This document shows positions 25,152-42,140 of a stretch of DNA of 46,155 nt, piece by piece. Source of the DNA: Oscillospiraceae bacterium (GTDB lineage Bacteria; Bacillota; Clostridia; Oscillospirales; Acutalibacteraceae); contig CADAER010000006.1 in assembly GCA_902787025.1 (NCBI GenBank), positions 1-46,155 on the forward strand, written 5' to 3'. Every line of letters starts with the position of its first letter. Position 1 is the first letter of the stretch. The notes under the pieces were generated by a model, which worked only from the letters and a program-made list of their open reading frames with translations, ran no database searches and had not been told where the DNA came from. Both the position numbers and the translations under genes were made by a program.

Positions 25152-26777
25152 ATGAAAACTGAAATTCTGAAAATCGAAGACATAACAAAGGACGCCGCTC
25201 TCATTGAGAAGGCGGGGAAAACCCTGCGCGAGGGCGGGCTTGTCGCCGTGCCGACGGAGACGGTTTACGGGCTTGCGGCTAACGCGCTCGACCCCGCCGC
25301 CGTCAAAAATATTTTCGAGGCGAAGGGCAGGCCTTCGGACAACCCGCTTATTGTTCACGTGGCGGACAAAAGCGGAGCGGAGCGCCTTTTTGAGAAAACG
25401 GATGAGAGATTTGACGCTCTCGCGGAAAAATTCTGGCCCGGTCCGCTGACCGTGATTATGAAAAAATCGGATATTGTTCCCGATATCACAAGCGGAGGGC
25501 TTGACACGATAGCGGTTCGCTGTCCGTCTCATCCCGTGGCAAACGCGATAATCAGGGCGGCGGGCGTGCCGATAGCCGCTCCGAGCGCGAACACCTCGGG
25601 CAAGCCGAGCCCGACCACGGCTCAGCACGTGGCAGACGATTTGTCGGGAAAAATCGACCTTATTGTTGACGGCGGAAAATGCGAGATAGGCGTTGAGTCA
25701 ACGGTCATCACGCTCGCGACTCAGCCGCCGAGACTTCTGCGCCCGGGAAAAATCACGCCTGAGGAATTGCAGGAAATTCTGCCCGACCTCATAATCGACA
25801 ATGCGGTGTTCTCGGAACTCGCGAGCGGGGAAAAGGCGCAGTCGCCGGGTATGAAATACAAGCACTACGCTCCCGAGGCGGAGGTTGTTCTGCTCAGGGG
25901 CAGTCTCGAAAACGCGGTCAAATACATCAACAAATACGGCAACGCGGAGAGCGTGGCGGTCTGCTTCAGCGGAGAGAAGAACAACTTTGACATACCCGCG
26001 GTTGAATACGGACTTGAAAACGACGGGTTAAGCCTCGCTTCGAATCTGTTTTATGTGCTGCGCAAGGTTGACGACCTGGGCTTTTCGCGCGCTTTCGTGC
26101 GCTGCCCGAAGCCTGTGGGACTCGGGCTGGCGGTCTATAACAGGCTGCTTCGCTCGGCGGCGTTCCATGTGGTTGACGTTGACAAGCGTCTGCCCGTCAT
26201 AGGGCTTACGGGACCGACGGGAGCGGGCAAATCGACCGTCGCCAAATATTTTGTTGAAAACGGCTTTTATCTTATCGACGGCGATATTCTGGCAAGAGAG
26301 GCGGTAAAGAACAGCGTTGTTCTCGCCAATCTCGCGAAGGAGTTCGGTCAGGATATCATAAATGAGGACGGCAGTTTAAACCGCAGGCTTACGGCGGACA
26401 GGGCTTTCGCGACACCCGAAAAGACGAAGGCGCTCAACGCCATCACACATCCCGCGATTACGGCGCTGACCTATATTGAAATCACGAGGGCGGACAGAAG
26501 CGACTCGAAGGGCGTTATCATCGACGCCGCCGCTCTTCTGCAAAGCCCGATTATCAATATGTGCGATATGCTCGTCTGCGTTATCGCTCCCAAAGAGGAA
26601 AGGGTGCAGAGAATCGTTGAGAGGGACGGCATCACCGTCGAGCAGGCTCTCACGAGGATAAACGCGCAGAAGCCCGAACAGTATTACATTGACAACACGG
26701 ATTATATGATAAGCAACGCGAAGGGCGAGGATTTTCACGCGAAGGCGGATGAAATACTCGCACAGGCGCTGAAATAA
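25152..26777 (+). CDS. Fusion: threonylcarbamoyl-AMP synthase (Sua5) plus dephospho-CoA kinase (CoaE)
   Basis: The protein has 541 residues. Residues 1-335 form a full Sua5 protein: the YrdC domain (VPTETVYGLAANA, KGRPSDNPL, FWPGPLT, AAPSANTSGKPSPT), the interdomain SPGMKYKHYAP (231-241) and the Sua5 C-terminal domain. It makes threonylcarbamoyl-AMP from threonine, bicarbonate and ATP for tRNA t6A37. Residues 347-541 form a dephospho-CoA kinase: P-loop GLTGPTGAGKST (351-362), LIDGDILAREAV, a NAITHP region and a late QRIVERDG lid. It phosphorylates dephospho-CoA to CoA. The frame is continuous with no stop or internal ribosome site at the join, so one polypeptide should do both steps. It is cytoplasmic, directly after prfA and before a transglycosylase gene. 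Confidence 0.9.
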   Translation: MKTEILKIEDITKDAALIEKAGKTLREGGLVAVPTETVYGLAANALDPAAVKNIFEAKGRPSDNPLIVHVADKSGAERLFEKTDERFDALAEKFWPGPLTVIMKKSDIVPDITSGGLDTIAVRCPSHPVANAIIRAAGVPIAAPSANTSGKPSPTTAQHVADDLSGKIDLIVDGGKCEIGVESTVITLATQPPRLLRPGKITPEELQEILPDLIIDNAVFSELASGEKAQSPGMKYKHYAPEAEVVLLRGSLENAVKYINKYGNAESVAVCFSGEKNNFDIPAVEYGLENDGLSLASNLFYVLRKVDDLGFSRAFVRCPKPVGLGLAVYNRLLRSAAFHVVDVDKRLPVIGLTGPTGAGKSTVAKYFVENGFYLIDGDILAREAVKNSVVLANLAKEFGQDIINEDGSLNRRLTADRAFATPEKTKALNAITHPAITALTYIEITRADRSDSKGVIIDAAALLQSPIINMCDMLVCVIAPKEERVQRIVERDGITVEQALTRINAQKPEQYYIDNTDYMISNAKGEDFHAKADEILAQALK

Positions 26778-34893: not shown

Positions 34894-37185
34894 TTAAAGT
34901 TTGCTTCTCTGGATTTTTCCGCTTATGCTCTTGGGGAGGGAATCGCGGAAAACGACGAGTCTCGGATATTTGTAGGGGGCGGTGTGCGCCTTAACGTAAT
35001 CCTGAATCTCTTTTTTGAGCTCCTCGGTGCCTTCGGTACCTTTGGTGAGAACGATGGAAGCCTTGACTATCTGGCCTCTGACCTCGTCGGGAGCGGCGGA
35101 GACGCCGCATTCGAGAACATAGGGGAGTTCCATGATAACGCTTTCAATCTCAAACGGACCGATGCGGTAGCCCGAGGATTTGATGACATCGTCAACTCTG
35201 CCGACATAGAAGAAGAAACCGTCTTCATCTCTGTAGGCGGTGTCGCCCGTGTGATACCAGCCGTTGCGCCAGGTTTCGGCTGTTTTTTCCTCGTCTTTAT
35301 AGTAGCAGACGGCGAGGCCATAGGGCAGGCCGTTTTTGATGTTTATGCAGATTTCGCCCGTTTCGCCCGCGGGGAGGGGTTTGTCGTCGGGGTCGAGAAT
35401 CTGGACGTCATAAATCGGGGCGGGCTTGCCCATTGAGCCGATTTTATGCTCGGCGCCGCGCATATTGCCGCAGATGAGGGCGGTTTCGGTCTGACCGAAG
35501 CCCTCTAAAATCTGAAGGCCTGTCGCCTGCTCGAAAAGTCTGTAAACCTCGGGGTTGAGCGCCTCGCCCGCCGTGGTCATATGCTGAATGGACGACAGGT
35601 CGTATTTAGTGATATCCTGACGGACCAGCATACGCAGAAGAGTCGGGGGAGCGCAGAAGGTCGTGATGTTATACTCCTTGAACATCGGAAGGATGTCCTC
35701 CGCGTGGAAGCGGATTTCGTCATAGACGAACAGGGCGGTTTCGCACATCCACTGGCCGTAGAGCTTGCCCCAGGCAGCCTTTGCCCAGCCTGTGTCGGAG
35801 TAGCTTAAATGCAGGCCGTCGGGGTCGACATCGTGCCAGTATTTAGCGGTGTGGAACTGGCCGAGAGGGTATTTGTAGCTGTGAACTGCGAGCTTCGGGA
35901 AGCCCGATGTGCCCGAGGTGAAATACATCAGCATATAGTCGTCGCCGCCGGGAGCGTCCGCGGGTTTTGCGTAGTGGGTGGAGAAGCGCATATACTCCTC
36001 GTTGAAGTCGCGCCAGCCCTCGCGGGTGCCGTTGACGATGAGCTTGTTGACCATTCCGTCGTAGCTTTTGAGAGCCTCTTCGACGTTGGGGCAGATTTCC
36101 TCGCCGTCTGCCGTGCAGATTATTGTTGTAACGCCCGCGAACTTGAATCTGTATTCATAGTCGTGCGGGAGAAGCTGGAAGGTGGCGGGAATCGACACGG
36201 CGCCGATTTTCTCGAGCGCGAGGGTCGCGAACCAGAACTGGTAGTTTCTTTTGAGAACGAGCATAACCCTGTCGCCGCGCTTTATGCCGAGCGAAAGGAA
36301 GTAGTTTACGCAGCGGTTTGTGTGCTGTTTAATCTCTTTCCAGGTGAATCGGGTGGGGACTTTGTCTTTCGAGACATAGACCATCGCGATTTTGTCGGGA
36401 TCCTTGTCGGCTATCTCGTCGATTATATCGAAAGCGTAGTTGAAGTGCTCCTCGTTTTTGAAGGTGACGGAAACGGGAGTGCCGTTTTCATCCTCGACGG
36501 TGTCGATGTATCTTTTGTAAATGCGGTCCTTCGTGTCGCGCATATGCTTCATCTGAGGGGCGCCGACTCTCTTTGTGGGCTGAAGCTCGGGTATCGGCTC
36601 GCCCGACGGATTGAGGACAATGGCGTAGAAGCTGCAGTCCTTTCCGCCGACGGCTCTTTCGCCGTGCGGTTTGCCCGAATCGAAATAGATGCTGTCGCCC
36701 GCGTTGAGTATCTCGCTGTGGCTGCCTACCTGGACCTCAAGCTGACCGTCGATGACGATGTCGATTTCCTGGCCCGCGTGAGTGGTCAGTTCGATGGGCT
36801 TCGACTGAGCCTCCTCGCTGTATTTGCTGATTACATAAAGCGGTTCGGAGATTCTGTTCTTGAAGCCGTAAGCCATATTGTAGTAAGTCATTCCGTGCGC
36901 GTCGGAGATTCTCGGCGCCTCGCCCCTGCGGGTTACGAAATATGAATAAAGCTTGGGCGATTTGCCTTCGATGAGGTTGGTGACATCGACCTGAAAAGCG
37001 CTCGCGCATCTGTAAAGGAAGGCGAAGTTGAGGTCGCTTTCCCCTCTTTCGCACGCGAGGTATTCGTCAACGCTCACGCCTGTTTTTTCCGCCATTTCTT
37101 CTACGGATATGCCCTCGATTTCACGCAGTTCGCGAATACGGGCAGCCATTTCGTGGATTTTCATATCCAGGTTGTTAAGTTGCAT
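34894..37185 (-). CDS. XRE-HTH + cupin + AMP-dependent acyl-CoA synthetase fusion
   Basis: The protein has 763 residues. Residues 15-73 are an XRE helix-turn-helix (IRELREIEGISVEEMAEKTG). Residues 115-195 are a cupin (GQEIDIVIDGQLEVQVG, LNAGDSIYFDSGKPHG). Together they form the usual HTH-cupin regulator. Residues ~240-763 are a complete ANL acyl-CoA synthetase of the medium-chain/acetate-like class: P-loop FTSGTSGFPK (422-431), EGFGQTETA, WYHTGDTAYRDEDGFFFYVGR, SSGYRIGPFEIES and catalytic Lys757 in PKSISGKIQ. It should activate a carboxylic acid to its CoA thioester with ATP while also being able to bind DNA or a ligand. The acid is unknown. GGAGG is nine bases before the ATG. The transcript has a T-box leader (37212-37480), so expression should rise when a certain tRNA is uncharged. 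Confidence 0.9.
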   Translation of the reverse strand: MQLNNLDMKIHEMAARIRELREIEGISVEEMAEKTGVSVDEYLACERGESDLNFAFLYRCASAFQVDVTNLIEGKSPKLYSYFVTRRGEAPRISDAHGMTYYNMAYGFKNRISEPLYVISKYSEEAQSKPIELTTHAGQEIDIVIDGQLEVQVGSHSEILNAGDSIYFDSGKPHGERAVGGKDCSFYAIVLNPSGEPIPELQPTKRVGAPQMKHMRDTKDRIYKRYIDTVEDENGTPVSVTFKNEEHFNYAFDIIDEIADKDPDKIAMVYVSKDKVPTRFTWKEIKQHTNRCVNYFLSLGIKRGDRVMLVLKRNYQFWFATLALEKIGAVSIPATFQLLPHDYEYRFKFAGVTTIICTADGEEICPNVEEALKSYDGMVNKLIVNGTREGWRDFNEEYMRFSTHYAKPADAPGGDDYMLMYFTSGTSGFPKLAVHSYKYPLGQFHTAKYWHDVDPDGLHLSYSDTGWAKAAWGKLYGQWMCETALFVYDEIRFHAEDILPMFKEYNITTFCAPPTLLRMLVRQDITKYDLSSIQHMTTAGEALNPEVYRLFEQATGLQILEGFGQTETALICGNMRGAEHKIGSMGKPAPIYDVQILDPDDKPLPAGETGEICINIKNGLPYGLAVCYYKDEEKTAETWRNGWYHTGDTAYRDEDGFFFYVGRVDDVIKSSGYRIGPFEIESVIMELPYVLECGVSAAPDEVRGQIVKASIVLTKGTEGTEELKKEIQDYVKAHTAPYKYPRLVVFRDSLPKSISGKIQRSKL

Positions 37186-37211
37186 AAGGGATTACCTCCG
37201 TTCCGGGGCCG

Positions 37212-37480
37212 AAAAAAACCCGCCCCAAAGTAATTGAACTTTGAGACGAGTATAAAAATCAATACCCGCGGTACCACTCAAATTGTGTTTACACACCACT
37301 CAGGCTCTGACAAGCCGTATGCATTTACGCAGCAATCACGGGGAGGTTCTACTTGCCTTTCGGGTTTCTTCCTCCCGGCTCGGAAGCTACAGATATGCAC
37401 CGCGCGCCGACAGCTCGCACCGGCCGCTGCCTCTCTTAAGACCGCAAATGCAATCACTCTTCGTCAAAGCCTTTTTTATG
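37212..37480 (-). ncRNA. T-box riboswitch leader
   Basis: Reading the minus strand 5' to 3': stem I starts near 37478 with GGCTTTGACGAAGAGTGATT, then AAGAGAGGC and the apical GGTGCGAG closed by CAGC/GCTG. The returning strand is GGTGC-ATATCTGTAG-CTTCCGAGCC. A GGGAGG/CCTCCC stem follows. The antiterminator carries the T-box TGAGTGGTACCGCGG (37266-37280). A terminator, GTCTCAAAGT pairing with ACTTTGGGGC then GGGTTTTTTT, ends at ~37212. The bulge TGGT should pair with ACCA, i.e. a tRNA with discriminator A. The specifier must lie in ATATCTGTAG: ATC (Ile), CTG (Leu) or TAT (Tyr) would agree with discriminator A, whereas TCT (Ser) and TGT (Cys) would not. The choice is unresolved. Confidence 0.85.
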
Positions 37481-37697
37481 GTAAACCCCGCTTTCCGCTT
37501 TAACGCAATCCCGACGGCTCTTTTCCCGCCGTGTTTTGCAAAAATACTCGGCAATAAACAAATTATTCCCTGCGTTTTTTGCTTCACCCGGACGAAAAAA
37601 TTTCTCGTCAGTCTCCGCGTCACGCGACAAACGGTGTTTACATTTTTTCTGCAAAGCGAAGTATTAAAAAATTAATTCCGTTTGCTTTGGCTTAGTT

Positions 37698-37726
37698 ATA
37701 ATAAACCATCTTTATTGTTTTGTCAA
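37698..37726 (-). promoter_or_regulatory. Promoter of the T-box leader
   Basis: On the minus strand TTGACA, exactly 17 bases and TATTAT are found. Transcription would start near 37691, giving about 200 bases before the T-box core and a ~500-base leader in all. The first 200 bases contain an ACGGC/GCCGT hairpin but nothing I can name. Confidence 0.8.
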
Positions 37727-38579: not shown

Positions 38580-38690
38580 GTTTTTTTGAAGATTTTGTAT
38601 AAAAAAGAGTGGGATTCGGCGGGATTTTTGGATATTTTAGGGATTGGATGGGGGGTTATTGTTTTATTTTCCCGGAGAGGTTTGTATCAG

Positions 38691-38905
38691 GGTGAGTTTT
38701 GCGGACTCCCTCCGTCACGGCTTCGCCGTGCCACCTCCCTCGATGAGGGAGGCTATACACCTCATCCGTCTTGCCTTTGGCAAGCCACCTTTTTTCTCCG
38801 AAAACGGGCACCCTTTTGTCGCTTACGCGACATTTCCCCTGACAGGGGAATAACCCAAAGGGCGAGCCGAGTAAACTCCTTCCGTCACGGCTTCGCCGTG
38901 CCACC
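38691..38905. repeat. Mosaic hairpin repeat block B (165-bp unit, copy 1)
   Basis: Positions 38691-38855 match 41651-41815 with three substitutions by eye. The unit strings together hairpins: CACGGC-TTC-GCCGTG, CCTCCCTC-GAT-GAGGGAGG, CTTGCC-TTT-GGCAAG, GTCGC-TTAC-GCGAC and CCCCT-GAC-AGGGG. A second CACGGCTTCGCCGTG unit lies at ~38885-38899. Open frames across it are translations of the repeat, not genes. The 947 bases between MgtC and the next gene hold only its promoter and these repeats. Confidence 0.75.
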
Positions 38906-39165
38906 GTCTCGCCTGCCGGCTCGGTCGGCGCTTCTGCCTTGCGGCTTTATAATGCCCTCAGAAATATGGTCGTTCTACTCACTGCCGTTCGCATTACTCC
39001 CTATTTCTTCACCTCAGCGCCTCGCTTCATCGTCCACCGGACGCGCTTCGGTGCTTCGCCCACCGGAGACCCGCGCCCCCAAAGGAGGAGGCTATAAGAG
39101 GGCGGAGACCCGCGCACTCGGAGGAGGCTATGCGCGAGGGGAGATTGCAAAGATAAAAAAGCGGC

Positions 39166-39240
39166 ACGGATGTATCCGTACCCTACGGGATTGTTTATAA
39201 ACTGAGGCGGGGTTGGCGGGCGGATGATATCCGCCCCTAC
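39166..39240. repeat. Two related hairpins ending in CCCTACGGG
   Basis: ACGGAT-GT-ATCCGT followed by ACCCTACGGG (39166-39189) and GGGCGGAT-GAT-ATCCGCCC followed by CTACGGG (39218-39243) look like two versions of one module. The outer stem bases changed on both sides so that pairing is kept. The second version also occurs at 21022, 41615 and 42023. Confidence 0.55.
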
Positions 39241-41614: not shown

Positions 41615-42090
41615 GGGCGGATGATATCCGCCCCTACGGTTTGGTGTGGGGGTGAGTTTTGCGGACTCCCTCCGTCACGGCTTCGCCGTGCCACCTCCCT
41701 CGATGAGGGAGGCTATACACCTCATCCGCCTTGCCTTTGGCAAGCCACCTTTTTTCTCCGAAAACGGGCACCCTTTTGTCGCTTGCGCGACATTTCCCCT
41801 GTCAGGGGAATAACCTCAAGGGGAAGGCTTTTGCCCTCTCAGTCTCGCTTACGCTCGACAGCTCTCCCGGAGGGCGAGCCAAGTAAACACACTTTCGGCG
41901 ACATTTCCCCTGACAGGGGAATAACCTCGAGGGGAAGGCTTTTACCCTCTCAGTCTCGCTTACGCTCGACAGCTCTCCCACAGGGCGAGCCGGGACACAA
42001 GGACGGATTGCGGCGGGGTTGCGGGCGGATGATATCCGCCCCTACGGTTTGGTGTGGGGGTGAGATTTGCGGACTCCCTCCGTCACGGCT
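41615..42090. repeat. Mosaic hairpin repeat block C/D (165-bp unit copy 2 and tandem parts)
   Basis: GGGCGGAT-GAT-ATCCGCCC (41615-41633) is followed by the 165-bp unit (41651-41815). A ~94-base segment (41787-41880) is then repeated at 41898-41991. From 42023 the GGGCGGAT hairpin and the start of the 165-bp unit appear again and break off inside CACGGC near 42090. The gap between the surface protein and GH43 genes (about 700 bases) otherwise holds two terminators and a 12-bp AATGAAATAATC tandem near 42116. Confidence 0.75.
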
Positions 42091-42140
42091 GTATTGTTCT
42101 ATATTTATTTTTTAATGAAATAATCAATGAAATAATCAAT

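Follow-up and report, generated by a model that had tools for sequence, protein, structure and literature searches.

A T-box leader with a predicted valine specifier precedes a putative isobutyrate:CoA ligase gene in an Oscillospiraceae bacterium

T-box riboswitches respond to uncharged tRNA with increased expression of the genes behind them. The targets described in the main text of a genome survey are aminoacyl-tRNA synthetases and genes for amino-acid biosynthesis and transport (PMC3766115), whereas the target of the leader considered here would activate a fermentation acid. This leader lies in the window, the whole 46,155-nt stretch of DNA from an Oscillospiraceae bacterium that was analyzed in this study, and it raises the question of which amino acid an acyl-CoA synthetase under T-box control could serve. 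A preliminary description of this DNA had pointed out T-box landmarks behind a consensus promoter, with an acyl-CoA synthetase as the only gene downstream, and had suggested that branched-chain or aryl acids are salvaged by reductive carboxylation to 2-oxo acids. The features of the locus are collected in Table 1.

Table 1. Features of the leader and the synthetase gene, with positions in the window.
Feature	Position	Strand	Evidence
Promoter, sigma-70-like, TTGACA-17-TATTAT	37698..37726	minus	11/12 matches; identical hexamers in G030 and G013
Leader segment, promoter to stem I	37477..37697	minus	~180 nt more than in G030 (97% identical protein)
T-box leader	37239..37476	minus	RF00230, full model 1-219; 77.2 bits, E 6.1e-17; below gathering score 93
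Stem I basal helix, 5' strand, GAAG	37459..37462	minus	pairs with CTTC 37383-37386
Predicted specifier codon GUA (Val)	37388..37390	minus	Rfam alignment and 96 aligned leaders
T-box sequence UGGUACCGCGG	37266..37276	minus	UGGU complementary to ACCA of tRNA-Val (A73)
Intrinsic terminator, 14 pairs, then T run	37218..37251	minus	pair count; fold z -4.5
Likely ribosome-binding site GGAGG	37195..37199	minus	sequence
XRE-cupin-acyl-CoA synthetase, 763 aa, valine-type	34894..37185	minus	ORF, Pfam, NCBIfam, PDB
XRE-type HTH domain, residues 15-75	36961..37143	minus	PF12844, 1.3e-7
Cupin domain, residues 133-189	36619..36789	minus	PF07883, 1.8e-12
AMP-binding domain, residues 257-615	35341..36417	minus	PF00501, 3.8e-61
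Codon of Ala468, type-separating position	35782..35784	minus	comparison of 100 proteins
AMP-binding C-terminal domain, residues 679-757	34915..35151	minus	PF13193, 2.1e-19

On the minus strand, 37212-37480 is occupied by a T-box leader, although it scores below the Rfam cut-off. Similar to other members of the family (RF00230), it has a stem I with a specifier loop, AGAGAG and GGUG motifs, a UGGU bulge, and an antiterminator set against a terminator. The landmarks lie where they had been described, and the covariance model, a check proposed at that time, is matched from 37476 to 37239 over its full length, with 77.2 bits. Because the gathering score is 93, a scan of the window at gathering scores returned nothing. 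Eight RF00230 matches with E up to 0.001 were identified in the 2.26-Mb genome, and the window leader is the weakest of them. Homologs of the downstream gene are of a valine type, which includes the window gene, or an isoleucine type; when leaders from eight sources were rescanned, the gathering score was reached by one of seven valine-type and one of seven isoleucine-type leaders, and the valine-type leaders of G027 and G029 pass it.

Folds of overlapping stretches indicate that antiterminator and terminator are mutually exclusive, as is expected of a T-box. The stretch that contains the terminator has a predicted energy of -23.1 kcal/mol (z -4.5 against shuffles), and a shorter stretch without it folds as the antiterminator (z -1.6, with 11 of 200 shuffles as good). 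Stem I alone (101 nt) folds no better than its shuffles (z +1.2), and the position of the specifier was accordingly derived from the aligned leaders instead of from energy. The promoter-like sequence was also recovered, with 11 of 12 matches, about 220 nt before stem I. Since shuffles of the region contain on average 0.8 sites with at least 9 of 12 matches, this promoter-like site is weak taken alone; such sites precede 93 of 95 leaders examined, a figure without a shuffled control. The distances in the window and in the close relative G030 are 421 and 241, respectively, and by alignment the extra ~180 nt lie within 37490-37690. G030 lacks this stretch, and G013 has part of it. Parts of it recur elsewhere in the genome of the window species with 88% (contig C60) and 81% (C49) identity, so that it may be a small interspersed repeat.

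To read the codon in context, homologous genes were gathered from 46 loci of a named collection, 51 of 60 related genomes, and 143 of 293 genomes of the class. Upstream regions were read only where the gene start lay in the fetched locus, which yielded 124 rows, 104 of them distinct; a T-box motif, by the pattern used, is present in 96 of the distinct regions and missing from eight. In the Rfam alignment, GUA of the window leader occupies the columns of the specifier in known leaders such as that of B. subtilis glyQS. There, 54 valine-type leaders read GUA (50), GUC (3), or CUC (1), and all 42 isoleucine-type leaders read AUC (41 by column, and L137, off by one column, by eye). The gene type was assigned by the protein tree for 51 of the 54 valine-type and all 42 isoleucine-type leaders, and by similarity alone for L033, L072, and L078. 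One of the isoleucine-type genes behind an AUC T-box is that of strain KHP2 (L034).

The basal helix of stem I is paired in 372 of 372 cells across 93 leaders (three of the 96 are left out, two being cut or gapped and one misaligned). Both partners vary at each of the four pairs, and one helix sequence is common to 84 of the 93. If the partner strand is shifted by one or two columns, only 142-280 of 373 cells remain paired. Exactly one nucleotide separates the helix from the specifier codon in the aligned leaders, and the Val specifiers show synonymous variation (GUA, GUC). One step upstream, the frame reads the Cys codon UGU in valine-type leaders, except for L151 (GGU) and L032 (GCU), and a mixture of CAU (His) and UAU (Tyr) in the sister type; one step downstream, valine-type leaders mostly read the stop codon UAG. 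Specifiers in a T-box survey lie 1-5 nt before a conserved GAG (PMC2494555), compared with 6 nt in the window leader.

Among the 30 of 35 tRNA loci inspected in the genome of the window species are genes for tRNA-Val(UAC), (GAC), and (CAC); tRNA-Ile(GAU) was not among these 30. Both tRNA-Val(UAC) and tRNA-Val(GAC) end in A-CCA and thus match UGGU, and their A73 agrees with the discriminator A deduced in the preliminary description. Judged by its conserved place and the presence of the cognate tRNA, the predicted specifier is GUA, for valine. The Ile, Leu, or Tyr specifiers proposed earlier are replaced by this codon, and the isoleucine codon AUC belongs to the paralog.

The acyl-CoA synthetase is indeed the sole gene behind the T-box: the gene that follows it is convergent, and on its upstream side, in the same orientation, is an MgtC-family gene. 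The best PDB match of its product is 3etc (E 4.8e-165, residues 244-761), which we take to be the Methanosarcina acetivorans acyl-CoA synthetase acting on branched substrates. Different from the window protein, the 580-residue chain of 3etc has no HTH-cupin part in the match and carries Gly in place of Ala468. MbcS (NF047394) is the best of 108 NCBIfam families and covers residues 252-763, at 399.5 bits against a cut-off of 850. The window protein resembles MbcS of Staphylococcus aureus, an AMP-forming short branched acyl-CoA synthetase, but its score is less than half of the cut-off, and its N-terminus carries an additional HTH-cupin part. MbcS is selective for 2-methylbutyrate and isobutyrate and activates isovalerate poorly (PMC10026030); by analogy, isobutyrate would be the substrate of the valine-type enzyme.

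In both gene types the HTH and cupin domains (residues 15-189) are fused to the enzyme and keep their invariant residues. Near the promoters of 91 leaders that score 10/12 or more for the promoter, no conserved operator for the HTH domain was found; conservation there is limited to the hexamers, A- and T-rich tracts upstream, and a TG ahead of the -10. The fused part may add a second, protein-based control.

A protein tree (quick method, midpoint root) built from 101 proteins with 600 or more residues contains an AUC clade of 48 rows, in which 41 read AUC directly, one does so once its misalignment is allowed for, and six lack a T-box; the second clade holds 48 GUA, two GUC, one CUC, and two members without T-box. 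The specifier follows the gene type across the 96 distinct leaders. Comparison of 100 proteins with 700 or more residues gave four positions that distinguish the types under the criterion applied; of these, only position 468 is in the catalytic domain. Ala occupies it in 50 of 50 proteins with Val specifiers, and in 42 of 42 proteins with Ile specifiers it is Gly; the eight proteins without a T-box have Ala in the two members of the valine-type clade and Gly in the other six. G005, counted as valine-type, also has Ala. The gene behind the CUC leader (L032, cut by the contig end) likewise carries Ala468, a plausible finding if isobutyrate is also a source of leucine, as Val and Leu both come from 2-oxoisovalerate.

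The acyl-pocket residues of the 3etc enzyme presumably correspond to W450, W467, K469, W472, C511, and G564, all of which are kept in 100 of 100 proteins. Position 468 falls between these 3etc-aligned residues of the presumed pocket. Gly in the type with the larger acid and Ala in the other would be as expected of pocket size. Given that the codon co-varies with residue 468, the leader would state the substrate of the enzyme.

Gene neighborhoods in relatives provide a context for these acids. Isoleucine-type and valine-type genes often form tandem pairs in which each gene has a T-box of its own; directly behind these pairs lie genes for 2-oxoisovalerate:ferredoxin oxidoreductase (VOR; VorB, VorA, and VOR gamma) and branched-chain aminotransferase (IlvE). 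The fullest order, in L131, comprises a LeuA-like gene, a TIM-barrel acyl-CoA synthetase fusion, an amidohydrolase, the isoleucine-type gene behind its Ile T-box, the valine-type gene behind its Val T-box, IlvE, an ATPase-like gene (no family matched), VorB, VorA, and VOR gamma; at other loci the ATPase-like gene is first and IlvE last in the cluster. VOR and/or IlvE follow directly downstream on the same strand at 20 of 31 distinct valine-type loci (L013/L131 and L016/L130, being the same contigs, are each counted once), including L015 and L023, where IlvE is visible before the contig ends. The cluster is absent downstream at five loci (L009-L012, the nearest relatives of the window gene, and L029), and the contig ends too early at six (L014, L016, L027, L028, L031, and L032). 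G005 is one further valine-type locus with a VOR/IlvE cluster, beyond the 31. The linkage of 2-oxoacid:ferredoxin oxidoreductases, another check suggested earlier, is therefore found in related genomes.

In the genome of the window species the valine-type gene is detached; the VOR-IlvE cluster is found on contig C19, and C30 carries the isoleucine-type gene. Two of the encoded proteins exceed their NCBIfam cut-offs, VorB (NF005507, 519.3 vs. 399) and IlvE (NF009897, 482.5 vs. 307), and two fall below, VorA (beta; PorB_KorB, 126 vs. 261.9) and VOR gamma (PorC_KorC, 68.2 vs. 81.1); for the latter two, Pfam TPP_enzyme_C and POR pass. The isoleucine-type gene (C30; L125 6678-8045 and 8000-8737) appears as two overlapping ORFs behind an AUC T-box and is thus frameshifted or misassembled. 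Salvage of aryl acids by the window gene was considered and rejected: no aromatic specifier occurs in the 54 valine-type leaders, no aromatic gene was among the neighbors sought and found, which are VOR and IlvE, and among named families MbcS fits best.

Ketol-acid reductoisomerase (KARI) is required in the classical pathway to Val, Leu, and Ile. Neither KARI (PF01450) nor IlvD/EDD (PF00920) was found in the genome of the window species, which is 88% complete, so that these absences are weak by themselves. Across the class, KARI occurs in 0 of 18 genomes with a valine-type gene (the window species included) versus 169 of about 275 without one (Fisher 1e-7, ignoring kinship), a count that assumes both searches drew the same 293 genomes, as shared handles suggest. 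The corresponding figures for 60 close genomes are 0 of 21 (again including the window species) versus 15 of 39 (Fisher p 5e-4, ignoring kinship). KARI is present in 15 of 37 genomes whose only full-length fused gene is not valine-type. Two seeming exceptions were dismissed, since the 63%-identical partial gene of the KARI genome G128 carries Gly at position 468, which makes it isoleucine-type, and the gene of G014 is isoleucine-type too. The 17 class genomes with a valine-type gene span 11 families, in nine of which other members, G128 among them, possess KARI and lack a full-length valine-type gene; hence, the replacement seems to have taken place on more than one occasion.

Taken with the T-box itself, the match between specifier and gene type, the neighborhood in relatives, the missing classical enzymes, and the cognate tRNA genes, all of which were observed, these data make it very probable that a tRNA-Val-sensing T-box controls an isobutyrate:CoA ligase by antitermination and that VOR and IlvE then make valine. 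For tRNA binding, regulation in the cell, the substrate, and the direction of VOR, we infer the following course. When valine is short, the anticodon of uncharged tRNA-Val would pair with GUA and its ACCA end with UGGU, the terminator would fail to form, and the ligase would be made. The enzyme would convert isobutyrate, a common product of valine fermentation by neighbors, to isobutyryl-CoA, which VOR could turn into 2-oxoisovalerate by reductive carboxylation and IlvE into valine. The sister gene under the isoleucine T-box would likewise lead from 2-methylbutyrate to isoleucine. The idea of carboxylic-acid salvage in the preliminary description is retained in so far as the neighborhood fits reductive carboxylation, and is given up for aryl acids; at the level of sequence, the model hit is present and the specifier names an amino acid related to the presumed acid.

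Other readings of the locus were weighed. VOR enzymes are oxidative in peptide fermenters and can run both ways, and the cluster might accordingly oxidize 2-oxo acids derived from amino acids, with the synthetase or another enzyme handling the acyl-CoA. However, a T-box raises expression when its tRNA is uncharged, at which time breakdown of that amino acid would be harmful, AMP-forming synthetases spend ATP, and neither KARI nor IlvD was found in the 88% complete genome; such a role is highly improbable. The ligase could also feed branched-chain acyl-CoA primers to membrane fatty-acid synthesis, with the Val T-box merely reporting a shortage of the primer source. MbcS, the best-matching named family, makes such primers in Staphylococcus aureus and, in contrast to the valine route proposed here, serves lipid synthesis (PMC10026030). 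Nevertheless, the neighbors in relatives are VOR and IlvE and not lipid genes, KARI was found in none of the examined genomes with a valine-type gene, and primers would not need two specifiers matched to two gene types, which renders this function unlikely.

The codon and the state of the leader could be read differently as well. The loop UAUCUGUAG also contains AUC (Ile), CUG (Leu), UAU (Tyr), and UGU (Cys), and the 6 nt to GAG exceed the 1-5 nt surveyed (PMC2494555), so that the specifier might be one of these codons, or an aromatic one, and the acid another one. Yet the helix is fixed by paired changes, a single nucleotide leads from it to GUA/GUC here and to AUC in the sister type, AUC, CUG, and UAU are not kept across valine-type leaders, and the shifted frames give UGU against a CAU/UAU mix upstream and mostly the stop UAG downstream; there is hardly any likelihood left for another codon. 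Decay of the leader in the window species, with the gene having escaped its control, would agree with a score of 77 bits, the lowest of the eight T-boxes of the genome, and with the ~180 nt before stem I that G030 lacks. This stretch is outside the T-box, however, and the basal helix, the specifier, the T-box, and most of the terminator stem are identical in G030 and G013; we therefore hold decay to be very unlikely.

The rumen reductive-carboxylation pathway is known from labelling, and to our knowledge its activating genes and their control are unassigned. The proposed route resembles this pathway as established by Allison, Robinson, Peel, and others, in which isobutyrate yields valine and 2-methylbutyrate yields isoleucine. 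In rumen fermentation these acids are described as the Val and Ile precursors, respectively (PMC7356843, citing Allison & Peel, 1971; Robinson & Allison, 1969). Both the T-box class and, for decades, the rumen route from acid to amino acid (PMC7356843) are known; what appears to be new is the joint occurrence of a T-box codon that would name the amino acid made from the acid of the enzyme and a paralogous pair for two amino acids. The main text of one T-box survey (PMC2494555) does not contain "acyl-CoA", "AMP-binding", "oxidoreductase", or "CoA", and that of another (PMC3766115) does not contain "acyl-CoA", "CoA ligase", or "ferredoxin". Among the matches listed from open-licence literature outside the broad T-box surveys, no description of a T-box riboswitch with an AMP-dependent synthetase was present.

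Supplements of acids of this kind are fed to ruminants (PMC10311502). The locus offers specific genes for the activation step of the rumen pathway, together with a regulator that names the amino acid. A valine-type gene in the absence of KARI may serve as a genomic mark for predicting uncultured gut bacteria that may depend on these acids, and valine auxotrophy inferred from the genomes of such species could be mistaken. The locus further represents a case in which an RNA codon would predict the substrate of an enzyme, with a single-residue specificity switch that can be tested.

T-boxes that read CUC (Leu) precede LeuA-like genes in L125 (2461-6599, on C30), L123, L127, L128, L131, and L132; by eye, CUC stands above the helix in six of seven such leaders, and the T-box of L130 is upstream of the stretch read. 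The LeuA-like gene combines HMGL with a LeuA dimerization domain, scores below 2-isopropylmalate synthase cut-offs, and is followed by the unusual gene in which a TIM barrel is fused to an acyl-CoA synthetase. It is fairly likely that T-boxes with Val, Ile, and Leu specifiers run a whole regulon that replaces the classical branched-chain pathway in many families of gut Clostridia, with the codon co-varying with the pocket residue (GUA-Ala468, AUC-Gly468). Distant relatives of the synthetase (43-45% identity, with stops inside the match) lie at most ~40 nt from a POR-family gene in G046:C2:132990-135754, G022:C22:147-2903, G011:C23, G008:C31, G002:C79, and G028:C22; these may be counterparts for other acids that work with an indolepyruvate-type oxidoreductase.

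Elsewhere in the window, the ORF at 25152-26777 looks, by eye, like a fusion of threonylcarbamoyl-AMP synthase (TsaC/Sua5) and dephospho-CoA kinase. The ORFs at 38586-39200 and 41621-42115 have long peptide stretches in common (GEFCGLPPSRLRRATSLDEGGYTPHP), which by eye look like a repeated non-coding element read as protein.
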